From Bacteroidota bacterium (GTDB taxonomy: Bacteria > Bacteroidota > Bacteroidia > NS11-12g > UBA955), in assembly GCA_016868785.1 (NCBI GenBank), contig VGFS01000012.1, positions 1 through 52,562 of the forward strand: a DNA stretch of 52,562 nt, written 5' to 3'. This document shows positions 23,728 through 29,839 of this stretch, piece by piece (within the stretch, counting starts at the first letter, position 1; each line of letters opens with the position of its first letter). The notes below the pieces were generated by a model. That model saw only the letters and a program-made list of their open reading frames with translations, was not told where the DNA came from and searched no databases. Made by a program: the position numbers and the translations under genes.

Positions 23728-24264
23728 ATGAAATGGTATGGAATGTTGGGTGTGCTTTTGATGATTTCGGGGTGCACTTCGAAATTTGATCAAGATTTGG
23801 CCAAGGTGGCGCCTTACGAGGCGATGATTGTGCCCAAAGTTCAGTGGGAAAAACTGCCTGATTCGGCTACGACTGCGTTGATGGAATTTGCTAAAATCCA
23901 TCCGGAGTACAAGCATAGTAGCGACTTTGTATACGTTTGTACTAAGTTGGCAGAGCGCCAGGGTATGGTTTTCAAAGCGGCTGAATACAGCGAATATTAT
24001 ATCGAGCAGTTCAAGCCCACCGGCAAACCTTTGATGGAAATGTTGGTGGTGGCCTCACACTATTTTGAGCAGGGCGGGGCGTTGGATAAGGCGTTGAAAT
24101 ACTATCAGCGATTGGCCAAAGAATTCGGAAATGAAGAGGTTGGTAAACAAGCCATCGTGATGATAGACATGCTGAATTTGGGCCTTACAACGCCCGAGGC
24201 GCAGATGAATTACATCCTTCAAAAAGCGGTAAAAGATTCAGCCAAAACGGGGAATGCTCATTGA
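23728..24264 (+). CDS. TPR-like lipoprotein leading the molybdenum-cofactor operon
   Basis: A 178-residue lipoprotein. The signal (MKWYGMLGVLLMISGC) ends in a lipobox; mature Cys at residue 16. The mature part consists of paired helices with TPR-like spacing ('ALDKALKYYQRLAKEFGNEE'), so it is probably a protein-interaction module facing the periplasm. The ATG at 23728 is chosen because it gives the signal peptide; a longer in-frame extension is antisense to parE. TATTTTCG, one mismatch from the -7 consensus, lies 4 bases upstream. Its last 11 bases overlap the start of moaA, so the two are translationally linked, though no role in cofactor synthesis is known to me. Confidence 0.75.
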   Translation: MKWYGMLGVLLMISGCTSKFDQDLAKVAPYEAMIVPKVQWEKLPDSATTALMEFAKIHPEYKHSSDFVYVCTKLAERQGMVFKAAEYSEYYIEQFKPTGKPLMEMLVVASHYFEQGGALDKALKYYQRLAKEFGNEEVGKQAIVMIDMLNLGLTTPEAQMNYILQKAVKDSAKTGNAH

Positions 24265-25240
24265 TTCCTTTCATAGGGTACACGATTATTTGCGAATTTC
24301 GCTGACAGACAATTGCAATTTGCGATGTTCGTATTGCATGCCGGAGGAGGACTATGATTTTACCCCGGCAAGTCGGTTGATGCAGGTCGACGAAGTGGTG
24401 GCTATTGCCAAAGCATTTGTGGATGCGGGTGTGAAGAAAATCCGACTAACGGGCGGAGAACCTTTGGTGAGAAAAGATGCCGCCACCATCATAGAAAAAT
24501 TGAGTGGTTTGGGGGCTGTTTTGACTATGACTACCAACGCCACCCGGGTGCATGAGTTTGCCGATTTGATGTGGGCTGCGGGTATGCGAACGATCAATGT
24601 GAGCTTGGATACGTTAAACCGCGACACCTTTTTGTTTTTGACCAAACGCGATTTGTTTGACCGGGTGAAAGAGAACATTGATGGTTTGTTGTTGAAAGGC
24701 TTTGGGGTGAAGGTGAATGCTGTGGTTATGAAAGGGGTAAACGATGCCGAAATTTTGGATTTTGTGCGTTGGAGTGCGGCCTCGCCGGTGGATGTGCGGT
24801 TTATTGAATTTATGCCTTTTGAAGGCAATCATTGGCAGCAGGAAAAGGTGGTTACTTGGCAACAAATGTTGGAGGTAGTGCGCGCTACTTATGGTGGGGA
24901 TATAGAGCCGCTTCCGCGAAAGCCACATGAAACCGTGAAGCAGTATCGCGTGGCGGGTGCGAAGGGTACGTTTTCAGTGATAAGTACATTGAGTGCTCCT
25001 TTCTGTGGCGATTGCAACCGCATGCGTCTGACTGCGGATGGCAAAATGAAAAATTGTCTGTTTAGCAAGGGTGAAACCGATTTGTTAGCTGCGCTGCGCA
25101 GGGGAGAGGATATCACACCCCTTATCCGTGAGACGGTGGGTCTAAAAGCGATGGCATTGGGTGGGCAGTTTTCGGCCGACATAGAAAATATCGATGCAAA
25201 AACCATTGTGAACCGCAGTATGATTACCATTGGCGGATAG
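24254..25240 (+). CDS. moaA: GTP 3',8-cyclase MoaA
   Basis: A 328-residue radical-SAM enzyme that starts molybdenum-cofactor synthesis by converting GTP to 3',8-cyclo-7,8-dihydro-GTP. The N-terminal SAM cluster motif is CNLRCSYC (residues about 22-29) and the C-terminal second cluster is 'CGDCNRMRLTADGKMKNC'. 'IRLTGGEPLVRKD' is the SAM-binding GGE region, and the protein ends in the Gly-Gly tail (TIGG) required by the family. It starts inside the end of the preceding lipoprotein gene. moeA follows 18 bases downstream. Confidence 0.97.
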   Translation: MLIDSFHRVHDYLRISLTDNCNLRCSYCMPEEDYDFTPASRLMQVDEVVAIAKAFVDAGVKKIRLTGGEPLVRKDAATIIEKLSGLGAVLTMTTNATRVHEFADLMWAAGMRTINVSLDTLNRDTFLFLTKRDLFDRVKENIDGLLLKGFGVKVNAVVMKGVNDAEILDFVRWSAASPVDVRFIEFMPFEGNHWQQEKVVTWQQMLEVVRATYGGDIEPLPRKPHETVKQYRVAGAKGTFSVISTLSAPFCGDCNRMRLTADGKMKNCLFSKGETDLLAALRRGEDITPLIRETVGLKAMALGGQFSADIENIDAKTIVNRSMITIGG

Positions 25241-25258: not shown

Positions 25259-26512
25259 ATGACCCAAAGTTTAATTTCTGTGGCCGAGGCTAAGTCGCTG
25301 ATTGGGGCGCATGTGTGGCGTTTACCATCCACCCGAATGTTGTTGGGCGATGCTTTGGGTTTGGTTTTGGCCGAGGATGTGATTGCGCCATTGAACATGC
25401 CGGGATTTAACCAAAGCGCGATGGATGGCTATGCGTTTTCATGGGAGGGTTTTTTACAGAATGGGGCATTGACGATTGTTGGGGAGGTGGCTGCAGGGGC
25501 GGCCGAGGCAGGGCCGAGACCCGCCCCCAATCAAGCCGTGAGGATATTTACTGGAGCCCCGGTTCCGGATGGATTTGACACCGTGGTGATGCAAGAAAAG
25601 GTATCGGTGAGCCAAGGTGTATTGCACATCCTGGATGAAGGATTGGTGCAGGGACGGAATGTGCGTTTGGTGGGCAGTGAAATCGCGGAGGGTGCTTTGG
25701 CGATGCAGTCGGGAACCCCACTAACGCCTGCCGCCATCGGTTTTTTGGCAAGTTTGGGAATTACGCAGGTGTCGGTGATTCCAGCCCCAATAATTGCCTT
25801 GGTGGTGACGGGTGATGAGCTGCAGACGCCTGGGGTTGCATTGACTTTCGGACAAGTATATGAGTCGAATTCGCAGTTGTTGCAAGCGGCGCTGCAGTGG
25901 TTGCGATTTTCACAAGTGAAAATTCATTATGCAAAAGACGATTTGGATTCGTTAACACGCACATTGTTGGCGGCGGTTGAGGTTTCGGATTTGGTTTTGC
26001 TCACGGGGGGTGTAAGCGTTGGGGATTATGATTTTGTACCCAAAGCCGCCGCCGCCGCGGGGGTAGAAGCTGTTTTTCATAAAATCAAACAAAAGCCCGG
26101 AAAACCCTTGTTTTTTGGGGTGAAGAAGGGGGCTCATGCAAAATCGGAAATAGGTTCTGCGAATCAAACGGTGGTTTTCGGTCTGCCAGGAAATCCAGCA
26201 TCGGTATTGACTTGTTATTATCAGTACGTCACGGTGGCTTTGGAAAAACTCTCCGGGAGGTCGGTTACTATGAAGCCGTGTCGTGCTCAATTGCAATCGG
26301 ACTATCAGAAACCCGCGGGCTTAACCCATTTTTTAAAAGCCGATTTGCATGCCGCTGCGGATGAGCATTCGTCTTCAATTGTGTTTCTGATGGGTGCTCA
26401 AGAATCGTTTCGCTTGAGTTCGTTCGCGGTATCCAACGCAATCGTTGAAATTCCCGCGGAGACCACAAGGGTTGAAAAGGGTGATTGGGTTAACGTATAC
26501 CCAATCCAATAA
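25259..26512 (+). CDS. moeA: Molybdopterin molybdenumtransferase MoeA
   Basis: A 417-residue MoeA, inserting molybdate into adenylylated molybdopterin. It shows 'LAEDVIAPLNMPGFNQSAMDGYAF', with the family's PxFxxSxMDGYA motif, 'GAPVPDGFDTVVMQE', 'GDELQTPG' and 'YESNSQLL' of the MoCF domain, 'LLTGGVSVGDYDF' and 'VFGLPGNPASVL'. The domain order and length are normal. It is the second cofactor gene in the operon, between moaA and a TauE/SafE-like permease gene. The start is the ATG 18 bases after the moaA stop. Confidence 0.96.
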   Translation: MTQSLISVAEAKSLIGAHVWRLPSTRMLLGDALGLVLAEDVIAPLNMPGFNQSAMDGYAFSWEGFLQNGALTIVGEVAAGAAEAGPRPAPNQAVRIFTGAPVPDGFDTVVMQEKVSVSQGVLHILDEGLVQGRNVRLVGSEIAEGALAMQSGTPLTPAAIGFLASLGITQVSVIPAPIIALVVTGDELQTPGVALTFGQVYESNSQLLQAALQWLRFSQVKIHYAKDDLDSLTRTLLAAVEVSDLVLLTGGVSVGDYDFVPKAAAAAGVEAVFHKIKQKPGKPLFFGVKKGAHAKSEIGSANQTVVFGLPGNPASVLTCYYQYVTVALEKLSGRSVTMKPCRAQLQSDYQKPAGLTHFLKADLHAAADEHSSSIVFLMGAQESFRLSSFAVSNAIVEIPAETTRVEKGDWVNVYPIQ

Positions 26513-26538: not shown

Positions 26539-27432
26539 ATGTTTGCATCGGAAGTACTTCTTTGGCTCGGATTATTTTCCCTGGTGGCGTTTATGTATTC
26601 GGCGGTTGGACATGGGGGCGCGAGTGGCTATTTGGCTCTTTTATCATTGTATGATGTAGTGCCAGAATACATGAAGCCCATTGCGTTGGTTTTGAACATG
26701 CTGGTGAGTGGAATTGCTTTCTTTCAGTTTTACCGACAAGGTCATTTTTTGTGGCGTCTTTTTTTTCCCATTGCGATATTCTCTGTTCCGATGGCGTACT
26801 GGGGCGGGTTAACACCCCTGAAGGACCTATGGTATCAGCGTGGATTGGGTATTTTTTTGGTGATTTCTGTGGTGATGCTGTTGTGGCCAAAAAGAACGGA
26901 GACGCCTACATTGTTTACCTCGGCTGACTCTGATTCAGGCACTTCAGGTACTGATGTACCGGATTCTGTGAACAAAAGGGTCGGTTGGTGGAACAAGAAA
27001 ACAGGTGTGGCAGCTTTCATGGGTGCGGTCATCGGTTATGTCTCCGGTTTGTTGGGCATTGGTGGTGGAATTCTCCTTTCGCCGGTGCTTTTGATGATTC
27101 GTTGGACCCATCAAAAGCAAACGGCTGCCATTAGTGCGGCATTCATTTTTGTGAATTCAGCGGCTGGTTTGTACGGGTTTGTTCAACAGCACACACCTTG
27201 GATAACAACCGCTCAAAAGTTGGGCGGCAAGGCGGATACAATACTGGCTGGTCGATGTGCTTTCGGAGATCCTTGGTTTCAAGTGGTAGCAATCCTCTCG
27301 GTGTTGAATTTGCCGGTTTTGTTGGGCGGTCTTTTTGGGTCGTGGTGCGGCGCCAAGAAATTCAATCAAACCGCGATGAAATACATTTTGTGTGTTGTGT
27401 TGTTGATCGCTGCGATCAAATTACTTTTGTGA
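26539..27432 (+). CDS. TauE/SafE (TSUP) family permease inside the molybdenum-cofactor operon
   Basis: A 297-residue inner-membrane protein with about eight hydrophobic segments in two halves. The first half has 'GHGGASGYLALL' and the second 'GLLGIGGGILLSPVLL', the paired Gly-rich motifs of the TSUP/TauE family; a hydrophilic, Ser/Asp-rich linker (about residues 118-150) separates them. Family members move sulfite, sulfoacetate or other organosulfur anions. Here it lies between moeA (26 bases) and moaD (2 bases). Molybdate or sulfite transport connected with cofactor synthesis is therefore possible, but unproven. TAACTTCG, one mismatch from the -7 consensus, is 6 bases upstream. Confidence 0.85.
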   Translation: MFASEVLLWLGLFSLVAFMYSAVGHGGASGYLALLSLYDVVPEYMKPIALVLNMLVSGIAFFQFYRQGHFLWRLFFPIAIFSVPMAYWGGLTPLKDLWYQRGLGIFLVISVVMLLWPKRTETPTLFTSADSDSGTSGTDVPDSVNKRVGWWNKKTGVAAFMGAVIGYVSGLLGIGGGILLSPVLLMIRWTHQKQTAAISAAFIFVNSAAGLYGFVQQHTPWITTAQKLGGKADTILAGRCAFGDPWFQVVAILSVLNLPVLLGGLFGSWCGAKKFNQTAMKYILCVVLLIAAIKLLL

Positions 27433-27434
27433 CT

Positions 27435-27677
27435 ATGCAGGTGAGGTTGTTGTTTTTTGGAAATTTAACCGATGCGGTGCCATCGTCCACGTTGGATTGG
27501 GATTGGAATGGACAACGATTTGCTGTGGTTGATTTGCTACAATCTTTGTATGTGAATTATCCAAAATTAAAGGGGAAGACATTTAGAGTGGCCGTAAATC
27601 AGCAGTTTGTTGAGACCAATTTTGCCCTTACAGATGGCGATGAAGTTGCGTTGATGCCACCATTTTCAGGGGGATAG
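27435..27677 (+). CDS. moaD: Molybdopterin synthase small subunit MoaD
   Basis: An 80-residue ubiquitin-like sulfur carrier. It starts MQVRLLFFGNLTD and ends 'DEVALMPPFSGG'; the terminal Gly-Gly is adenylated by MoeB and then carries the thiocarboxylate used to build the dithiolene of molybdopterin. The start is 2 bases after the permease stop. A much longer in-frame extension upstream lies within the permease gene and is rejected. Both partners, MoeB and MoaE, follow in the operon. Confidence 0.93.
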   Translation: MQVRLLFFGNLTDAVPSSTLDWDWNGQRFAVVDLLQSLYVNYPKLKGKTFRVAVNQQFVETNFALTDGDEVALMPPFSGG

Positions 27678-27681
27678 GTTC

Positions 27682-28461
27682 ATGGAAATGGAAGAGGACT
27701 TTTTGGTTCGATATCAGCGTCAGCTGTCGCTCAGTGAAGTGGGCTTGTCCGGGCAGCGCGCGTTGCGCGCTGCCCGGATTCTGATTGTTGGGATGGGTGG
27801 ACTGGGGTGCCCAGCACTGCAATACCTATCCGCGGCGGGCGTTGGTACGTTGGTCTTGGTCGATGACGATGAAGTGTCGCTCAGTAACCTACACCGACAA
27901 ACCCTGTATTCACCCCAGCAAATCGGACAGAAAAAAGTGCAAGTGGCCGCCGATTGGGTTAGCAGCCTCAATAAAGAAATCCAGGTGGTGGCCGTTGCAG
28001 AGAAATTTTCTGCGGTAAACGCGCTAAACTTGCTTCAATACGTTGATTTGGTGGTCGATTGCACCGATACCTTTACGGCTCGATATGCCATCAACGACGC
28101 TTGTGCAGAGGCCGGTATTCCTTGGGTTTATGGTTCGATTGCAAAGTTTGAAGGACAAGTTTCGATTTTCAATGTGCCCAACGAGGAATGGCATCAGGGC
28201 AATAAACGTGGGTTGTCGCATTCCTTGAATTACCGCGATGTTTTTCCGAATCCGCCGGCAGATGGGGAAGTGCAGAATTGTACTGAATCCGGTGTGTTGG
28301 GTGCTTTGGCCGGCATTGTTGGGTCGTTGCAAGCCCTGGAAGCATTGAAATTCTTGCTCAAAACGGAAGGCCTTTTGGTGGATCAGATGCTCACCTATGA
28401 TGGGTTGTTGCATCGAATGTTGAAATATCAATTGCGTTCAAGTAATCCGTCAAAATCGTAA
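27682..28461 (+). CDS. moeB: MoeB/ThiF-family adenylyltransferase
   Basis: A 259-residue E1-like enzyme that activates MoaD. It has 'RYQRQLSLSEVGLSGQ', the nucleotide-binding 'ILIVGMGGLGCPALQYL', 'DDDEVSLSNLHRQTLY', 'VVDCTDTFTARYAIND' and 'NCTESGVLGALAGIVGSLQALEALK', where the Cys corresponds to the conserved ThiF/MoeB cysteine. The zinc-binding C-x-x-C pairs of E. coli MoeB are not present: the first region reads 'SLNYRDVFP' and the protein stops soon after 'MLKYQLRS'. No rhodanese domain is fused. A 14-bp perfect stem is embedded in codons about 22-33. Confidence 0.9.
   Translation: MEMEEDFLVRYQRQLSLSEVGLSGQRALRAARILIVGMGGLGCPALQYLSAAGVGTLVLVDDDEVSLSNLHRQTLYSPQQIGQKKVQVAADWVSSLNKEIQVVAVAEKFSAVNALNLLQYVDLVVDCTDTFTARYAINDACAEAGIPWVYGSIAKFEGQVSIFNVPNEEWHQGNKRGLSHSLNYRDVFPNPPADGEVQNCTESGVLGALAGIVGSLQALEALKFLLKTEGLLVDQMLTYDGLLHRMLKYQLRSSNPSKS
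27748..27778. repeat. GC-rich 14-bp perfect inverted repeat inside moeB
   Basis: TCCGGGCAGCGCGC (27748-27761) and its exact complement (27765-27778) are separated by GTT. The stem is almost entirely G/C and lies near the 5' end of the moeB coding sequence. There is no following T-run. It could slow ribosomes or polymerase, or serve as an RNA-processing site within the operon. Confidence 0.7.
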
Positions 28462-28475
28462 CTTTACCCTCGCAA

Positions 28476-28922
28476 ATGTTGGACAGAAAACCCAAAAATA
28501 TCTTTGTTCAGGGTGCGATATCACCGCAAAAAATCGGCGAGGATATAGCCCACCACAACAAGAAAACCCAAATTGGCGCTCACAGCATTTTCATGGGTCA
28601 AGTAAGGGCCGATGAGTCGTTGAATGGGACCGTAGAAGCCATTGAATACACGGCACACGAAGCCATGGCCTTGGAGAAAATGCACGAAATTCGCGAAGCC
28701 GTTTTTGCCAAATATCCACTCACTTGTTTGCACATCACCCACAGTTTGGGTCGAGTGAATGTGGGTGAAATTTGTCTGTTTGTTTTTGCATCGGCAGTGC
28801 ATCGGAAAGAAGCCATAGAGGCCTGTGAAGTAGTTGTAGAACACATCAAGCAATCTCTGCCCATTTGGGGGAAAGAGATTTGTTCGAACCAAACATACCA
28901 TTGGAAAGAAAATCGCCCATGA
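28476..28922 (+). CDS. moaE: Molybdopterin synthase large subunit MoaE
   Basis: A 148-residue MoaE, the catalytic subunit that uses the MoaD thiocarboxylate to convert cyclic pyranopterin monophosphate into molybdopterin. Recognisable parts are 'GAHSIFMGQVR', 'IEYTAHEAMALEKM', 'THSLGRVNVGEI' and 'AVHRKEAIEACEVVVEHIKQ', ending in 'LPIWGKEI', with the lysines expected in the active site. The start ATG is 14 bases after moeB. The stop overlaps the start of the moaC-moaB fusion by four bases. Confidence 0.93.
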   Translation: MLDRKPKNIFVQGAISPQKIGEDIAHHNKKTQIGAHSIFMGQVRADESLNGTVEAIEYTAHEAMALEKMHEIREAVFAKYPLTCLHITHSLGRVNVGEICLFVFASAVHRKEAIEACEVVVEHIKQSLPIWGKEICSNQTYHWKENRP

Positions 28923-29839
28923 TCAACATCACCCACAAATCAAATACCTTGAGAAAGGCCATTGCGGAGGCGGTGGTGAAAACCAGTTCTGAGGCAACCA
29001 TCGCGGCGGTAAAAAATCGTGCGGTTCCCAAGGGGGATGTGCTGGAATTTGCGCGGGTTGCGGGTTTGTTTGCCGTTAAAAAAACTGCGGATATGATTCC
29101 CGATTGTCATCCGATGCCGGTTGAATTTACCTCGGTCAGTTATACCTTCAGCGATACGGAAATCCATATTCAAATGGAAGTGCATACCGTCTATAAAACC
29201 GGGGTAGAAGTGGAGGCGATGCATGGTGTTTCGGTGGTGGCGTTGACCATGTATGATATGTTGAAACCCATCGACAAAGGCATTGAAATCGCCCACATTC
29301 GGTTGGTTTCGAAAACGGGCGGCAAATCGGATGCGCAAAAATTGGCCTTGCGTGAAGTGTGTGTCCGCAGCAAAGCGCAGGCGGTGGTTTGTAGTGACTC
29401 TGTATTTCGGGGTGATGCTCAGGACAAAGCCGGTGCCATGGTTGTTGAGCGATTGTTGGATCAGGGAATGACTGTGAATCCTTTGGTTGTGGTGCCTGAT
29501 GAGGTTGCTGCCATTCAAGCATGTGTGATGAACCATGCCCACAAGGTGGATGTTTTGCTGTTTGTGGGTGGAACGGGGCTATCGCACCGCGATGTTACCC
29601 CAGAGGCCGTACGGCCGCTTTTGACCCGAGAAATTGAAGGGATTATGGAGGTTGCCCGACGCTACGGTCAAGACAAAATGCCTTTTGCCATGCTGTCGAG
29701 AGGGGTTGCTGGAATGGTCAACGACACGTTGGTGGTTACTTTGCCCGGTTCAACCAAGGGTGCAATGGAAACGATGGACGCTATTTTTCCTGCGGTAATG
29801 CATGTATTTGCCGTGAAAGACGGGCAAAAACACGGTTGA
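28919..29839 (+). CDS. moaCB: Bifunctional MoaC-MoaB fusion
   Basis: A 306-residue fusion. Residues about 1-150 are MoaC (cyclic pyranopterin monophosphate synthase), with 'KGDVLEFARVAGLFAVKKT', 'MIPDCHPMPV', and 'VEAMHGVSVVALTMYDMLKPIDKG' ending in 'SKTGGKS'. Residues about 155-306 are a MoaB/MogA-type domain, which adenylylates molybdopterin, with 'SDSVFRGDAQDKAG', 'VGGTGLSHRDVTPEAV' and 'TLPGSTKGAMETM'. The fusion joins an early and a late step of the pathway and is known from other Bacteroidota. It is the last gene of the operon; the next gene is convergent, two bases away. Confidence 0.93.
   Translation: MINITHKSNTLRKAIAEAVVKTSSEATIAAVKNRAVPKGDVLEFARVAGLFAVKKTADMIPDCHPMPVEFTSVSYTFSDTEIHIQMEVHTVYKTGVEVEAMHGVSVVALTMYDMLKPIDKGIEIAHIRLVSKTGGKSDAQKLALREVCVRSKAQAVVCSDSVFRGDAQDKAGAMVVERLLDQGMTVNPLVVVPDEVAAIQACVMNHAHKVDVLLFVGGTGLSHRDVTPEAVRPLLTREIEGIMEVARRYGQDKMPFAMLSRGVAGMVNDTLVVTLPGSTKGAMETMDAIFPAVMHVFAVKDGQKHG

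Follow-up and report, generated by a model that had tools for sequence, protein, structure and literature searches.

The TSUP-family permease gene that lies inside a molybdenum cofactor (Moco) operon of this Bacteroidota genome most likely encodes a molybdate importer and, judged from its genomic setting, would add a functionally new branch to an established carrier family. There is probably a phylum-wide class of dedicated one-component molybdate importers within TSUP that has been mislabelled as sulfite exporters, would be under the control of stand-alone ModE domains in part of its range and closes the gap left by Moco makers for which no molybdate transporter is known. The substrates known for TSUP proteins are sulfur compounds, and a molybdate carrier would need to pick molybdate over the far more abundant sulfate.

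The window, meaning the whole stretch of 52,562 nucleotides that was analysed, contains seven genes on the forward strand which according to Pfam follow the order moaA-moeA-TSUP-moaD-moeB-moaE-moaCB (Table 1). The reading frame of the permease starts with ATG, stops with TGA, codes for 297 amino acids and matches PF01925 (TauE) over residues 12–295 (E 6.5e-30, 105 bits at a cut-off of 32.6). It begins 26 bases behind moeA and ends 2 bases before moaD, exactly where the preliminary description of this DNA had placed it, and further downstream the stop codon of moaE is overlapped by the start of the moaC-moaB fusion. No riboswitch was found in the window at Rfam thresholds, and scans of the window for promoters (8 found, 6.9 expected) and terminators (10 found, 9.5 expected) gave results at chance level. 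A G+C-rich inverted repeat of 15 pairs with a 3-base loop is located at 27747–27779 inside the moeB coding sequence.

Table 1: Moco operon of the window with the TSUP permease gene.
Feature	Position	Strand	Basis
moaA, GTP 3',8-cyclase; the operon's leading Moco gene	24254..25240	+	Pfam Radical_SAM, Mob_synth_C
moeA, molybdopterin molybdotransferase (uses molybdate)	25259..26512	+	Pfam MoeA_N, MoCF_biosynth, MoeA_C
TSUP-family permease; putative importer of molybdate or tungstate	26539..27432	+	Pfam TauE, operon conservation, ModA exclusion
moaD, molybdopterin synthase small subunit	27435..27677	+	Pfam ThiS; ends GG
moeB-like adenylyltransferase	27682..28461	+	Pfam ThiF; NCBIfam MoeB models
moaE, molybdopterin synthase large subunit	28476..28922	+	Pfam MoaE
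moaC-moaB fusion	28919..29839	+	Pfam MoaC, MoCF_biosynth

To the source genome as a whole (2.07 Mb in 79 contigs, 100% complete) the absence of modABC could be extended, which had been noted before for the sequenced stretch only: profile searches of the whole assembly found no ModA, and no ModB at E ≤ 1e-10. Two more TauE-family genes are present elsewhere in the genome. The search for molybdoenzymes returned a single PF00384 protein (E 2.4e-22), which is FdhF/YdeP-like (917 bits at a cut-off of 582), is adjoined by genes for FdhD and a MobA-like protein and is the sole molybdoenzyme detected, and neither a sulfite-oxidase-family protein (PF00174) nor a xanthine-dehydrogenase-family large subunit (PF02738) was found in this genome. 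Thus, with cofactor genes, an FdhF/YdeP-like enzyme and neither ModA nor ModB, the genome makes Moco and has a user for it but is without the usual pump. PF00384 proteins of about 770 amino acids, the size of the FdhF/YdeP-like enzyme of the source genome, also occur in genomes where MoaE went undetected (G046, G058, G095, G104 and others).

A profile built from 19 relatives of the permease (A1) was used to scan named genomes and recovered at least 581 relatives, the top 80 of which were analysed further; almost all of these loci are titled Bacteroidota, apart from one Saccharibacteria record and one entry named 'uncultured bacterium'. Among these best 80 of at least 581, all six other Moco genes are found within 5 kb of the permease in 45 loci, three or more in 70 and at least one in 76, so that the linkage between TSUP and Moco genes is far beyond chance and no peculiarity of this one genome. 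The four loci without a nearby Moco gene are L098, L121, L110 and L112; in L098 MocA- and XdhC-like genes are directly upstream of the permease gene and in L121 a ModE-type gene is directly downstream. Genes for a MocA-like transferase (50 of the best 80 loci), XdhC (35) and large subunits of the xanthine dehydrogenase family (25) occur in the flanks, and one representative of a fourth cluster of neighbours is NapA-like. From the order, 29 more loci were inspected and a Moco gene adjoins the permease in 28 of them, with the short locus L025 showing none.

The linkage is looser in more distant relatives. Positions of both the permease gene and moaE were available for 68 TSUP genomes; in 28 of these, mostly from the looser part of the family, the permease gene is more than 10 kb away from moaE or on another contig, and therefore the substrate may vary across this part; in two of the 28 (L156 and L160) moeA and moaA still adjoin the permease. 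A quick tree, in which branches are long, requires eight changes between linked and unlinked states, at least four of them forced by well-supported branches, so that Moco linkage appears to have been lost or gained several times and a single clade of Moco-linked genes was rejected. Hitch-hiking within the operon as the whole cause of the co-occurrence was also considered and is weakened by the 28 of 68 permease genes located away from moaE, together with the presence of the TSUP type in only 4 of 237 genomes that lack MoaE. Support for the importer claim is best within the Moco-linked clade, to which the source gene belongs.

The distribution of the two transporter types was compared in 392 Bacteroidota genomes of at least 90% completeness, with the permease profile scored at E ≤ 1e-20. 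The permease was found in 81, ModA in 136 and MoaE in 155 of these genomes. The TSUP type is present in 77 of the 155 genomes with MoaE and is in these commoner than ModA (54 of 155). More precisely, 76 of the 155 have only the TSUP type, 53 have only ModA (scored at E ≤ 1e-20), one (G286) has both and 25 have neither (Fisher one-sided, 6e-21); at a looser ModA threshold of E ≤ 1e-3 the number with both rises to five. As the genomes are related to each other, ModA was also shuffled 20,000 times within families and within genera. Within families 12.4 genomes with both would be expected and none of the 20,000 shuffles reached the observed value of one or less, and within genera 3.4 would be expected and 74 of 20,000 shuffles were as low as observed, which is a modest result. 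When each family is reduced to a single row, the exclusion loses significance (p 0.18), since families in which the two states are mixed then count as having both; seven families contain both states, and no genome in them has both.

A similar picture is seen in the order, where 52 of 108 genomes have MoaE and 48 of these 52 have the permease at E ≤ 1e-10. ModA is present in only two genomes of the order, and both are among the four with MoaE and without the permease. The remaining two are G062, in which the contig begins with moeB and a TSUP gene may have been cut off, and G072, which is fragmented into 420 contigs. ModB was not found over its cut-off in any of 50 TSUP genomes (other than the source genome and G286). 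At E ≤ 1e-10, a ModB-like permease was seen in 6 of these 50 versus 21 of the 25 genomes with neither TSUP nor ModA. This points to an ABC importer of some kind in the latter, and the existence of 25 such genomes among 155 with MoaE means that there are other uptake routes. Strong ModA matches were also seen in 71 of the 237 Bacteroidota genomes without MoaE (family f20 and others), corresponding to molybdate-type ABC importers without Moco synthesis.

In two genera the Moco operon occurs with the TSUP gene, or without it where modABC is present. In genus g40, one locus (L126, genome G187) reads xdhC-mocA-moaA-moeA-TSUP-moaD-moeB-moaE-moaCB and another (L125, genome G245) has the same row minus TSUP, with moeA and moaD separated by about a dozen bases only and with modA, modB and modC in the opposite direction beyond a gene for a small secreted protein next to xdhC. 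In genus g29, L132 (genome G261) shows moeA-ModE-TSUP-mocA-moaD, while in L127 (genome G309) the row is ModE-mocA-moaD with 10 bases between the ModE-type gene and mocA, and modABC is located on another contig. In a third genome of this genus, G277, a ModE-type gene ends the modABC row.

Stand-alone ModE-type proteins of 92–126 amino acids form a cluster that is represented in 14 of the best 80 of at least 581 loci. Their gene lies directly before the permease gene in 11 of the 14, with one reading frame in between in two, and downstream in the other direction in L121. Two members tested against TIGR00637 (ModE_repress) gave E 1e-25 and 89 bits, just under the cut-off of 98.5, and the profile of the cluster matches the solved ModE proteins 1b9m (6e-24) and 2ijl (3.7e-27); the neighbour consists of the DNA-binding part only. 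Such a protein would probably control the adjacent permease in part of the family, and the window itself has no ModE-type gene beside the permease.

A second recurrent neighbour is a small secreted protein without a Pfam match. In 23 loci (L063:8729-9247 and 22 others) its gene adjoins TSUP or lies within the operon, and in L125 (6027-6524) and L128 (8455-8967) it stands directly upstream of modA. By its model, the protein resembles PruR, a periplasmic protein that binds pterin (7kom, E 4e-8), as well as sulfite-oxidase folds. Among 12 aligned members the usual Cys is kept in four and replaced by Asn in eight.

TSUP proteins are all-helical membrane proteins with two related halves and glycine-rich motifs. 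The source permease carries GHGG in its first and GIGGG in its second half, and its AlphaFold2 model is helical throughout and of good confidence (pLDDT 84.3). Y20, H25, G26, G27, S29, Y31, N53, Y99, W189 and N206 are invariant or nearly so in 114 members scoring at least 270 bits; of these residues, Y20, H25, S29, Y31, N53, Y99, W189 and N206 are lacking at the corresponding positions in both further TSUP genes that the source genome carries. We regard these invariant residues of the Moco-linked clade as candidates for substrate contact. Solved structures gave no match to the clade by sequence above chance (best E 1.5), nor did a Foldseek search with the model at E ≤ 0.001. In a second fold comparison, using the model of 26539–27429, the undecaprenyl-pyrophosphate phosphatase BacA/UppP (5oon) came first (Z 11.3, 4.2 Å over 228 residues; next unrelated entry 5.4) and is the closest solved fold among the matches listed, which include no TSUP-family entry. 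The permease of the source genus is about 50 amino acids longer than most relatives, and two inserted loops (approximately 119–147 and 223–252) are of low confidence in the model.

The preliminary description had offered two options for the permease, uptake of molybdate or tungstate on the one hand and export of sulfite in connection with a sulfite-oxidase-type molybdoenzyme on the other. The near-exclusion with ModA, the swaps in two genera and the ModE-type neighbour together make the first well supported. The second, in which sulfite or a related sulfur oxyanion would leave the cell from or for such an enzyme, is now hardly credible. It draws on named family members that export sulfite or sulfoacetate (excerpts of PMC11535334) and on the sulfite-oxidase-like fold of the small secreted neighbour of some relatives, in which, however, the usual Cys is kept by the minority of aligned members given above. 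A sulfite oxidase is missing from the source genome, and only 7 of the 108 genomes of the order contain a PF00174 protein. In the phylum such proteins occur in 18 of 40 TSUP genomes versus 30 of 40 ModA genomes, the reverse of the prediction, so that this survey of 108 order and 80 phylum genomes lent the sulfite-oxidase link no support. Sulfite metabolism, the hallmark of a TauE-type sulfite exporter, is not what surrounds the permease, as the operon is one of Moco synthesis and PF00174 is not enriched. Sulfite export also leaves unexplained why the same operon lacks TSUP in genomes that have modABC.

The same absence weighs against a role in supplying sulfur (sulfate, thiosulfate or sulfite) to molybdopterin sulfuration or to assimilation in general, because the need for sulfur persists when modABC is present, yet TSUP disappears. 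MoaD, MoaE and MoeB do require a sulfur donor, but the usual source is cysteine and no imported oxyanion. A TauE homologue acting as a sulfate importer (excerpts of PMC11535334) shows that such a task is within reach of the family; even so, we consider a sulfur supplier very improbable, since TSUP tracks MoaE (77 of 155 genomes with it versus 4 of 237 without). A metal oxyanion carrier mainly for tungstate, or an overflow exporter of molybdate is also improbable, if a little less so. ModA-type systems carry both metals, and formate dehydrogenases, to which the only molybdoenzyme detected in the source genome is related, may use either molybdenum or tungsten. But the enzymes encoded beside the relatives are classic molybdenum enzymes, namely members of the xanthine dehydrogenase family and NapA in one locus, and alternation with the ModABC importer is not what one would expect of an overflow exporter.

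For the molybdate importer we propose a scheme in which substrate, direction, energy coupling and regulation are predicted. The permease would be a small secondary carrier from a Bacteroidota subfamily of TSUP that is dedicated to Moco synthesis. Molybdate, and possibly also tungstate, would cross the inner membrane through it, probably driven by an ion gradient, and the imported metal would be passed on to MoeA for insertion into molybdopterin. The permease would in this way take over from ModABC, a pump driven by ATP. Where a ModE-type DNA-binding protein is its neighbour, as in some family members, this protein would probably control it.

In a survey of molybdenum use, 278 of 3,683 molybdenum-using bacteria had no known molybdenum transporter and it was pointed out that further uptake systems may exist (excerpts of PMC6147048). 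The TSUP type is a concrete candidate for molybdate uptake in many Bacteroidota and probably the missing uptake gene. If this is true, it would correct the annotation as 'sulfite exporter' and extend the substrate range of a carrier family that has been poorly characterised (excerpts of PMC5840216) and whose known substrates are sulfur compounds (excerpts of PMC5840216 and PMC11535334). It would also raise the question by what means a carrier of this small size prefers molybdate to sulfate. We found no TSUP protein named as a molybdate importer in the open-licence literature; the excerpted texts of PMC7266159, PMC10102598 and PMC11733289 contain nothing of this kind, and that of a paper on moeA of Flavobacterium IR1 describes a Moco operon and names no such permease gene (PMC12758843).

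The permease resembles other members of the TSUP/TauE-SafE family (PF01925) in its profile match of 105 bits and in the GHGG and GIGGG motifs, but its clade differs in having its own invariant residues and in being tied to Moco instead of sulfur genes. MOT1 and MOT2 belong to protein families different from TSUP, and MOT1-like SulP proteins also occur in some bacteria. As eukaryotic proteins, MOT1 and MOT2 are a precedent for molybdate uptake without an ABC transporter (excerpts of PMC6147048 and PMC5840216). Closer by family is a TauE homologue from Pseudomonas fluorescens, which restores sulfate uptake in an E. coli delta-cysA strain and hence imports a tetrahedral oxyanion, although its substrate is sulfate and a relative of it occurs in a setting of sulfate assimilation (excerpts of PMC11535334). 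With ModABC the permease would share its task, and a ModE-type regulator as well as the secreted protein with the sulfite-oxidase fold can adjoin either TSUP or ModABC; it differs from this system in being a single component without ATPase or binding protein, recognised by the TauE profile instead of those of ModA and ModB.
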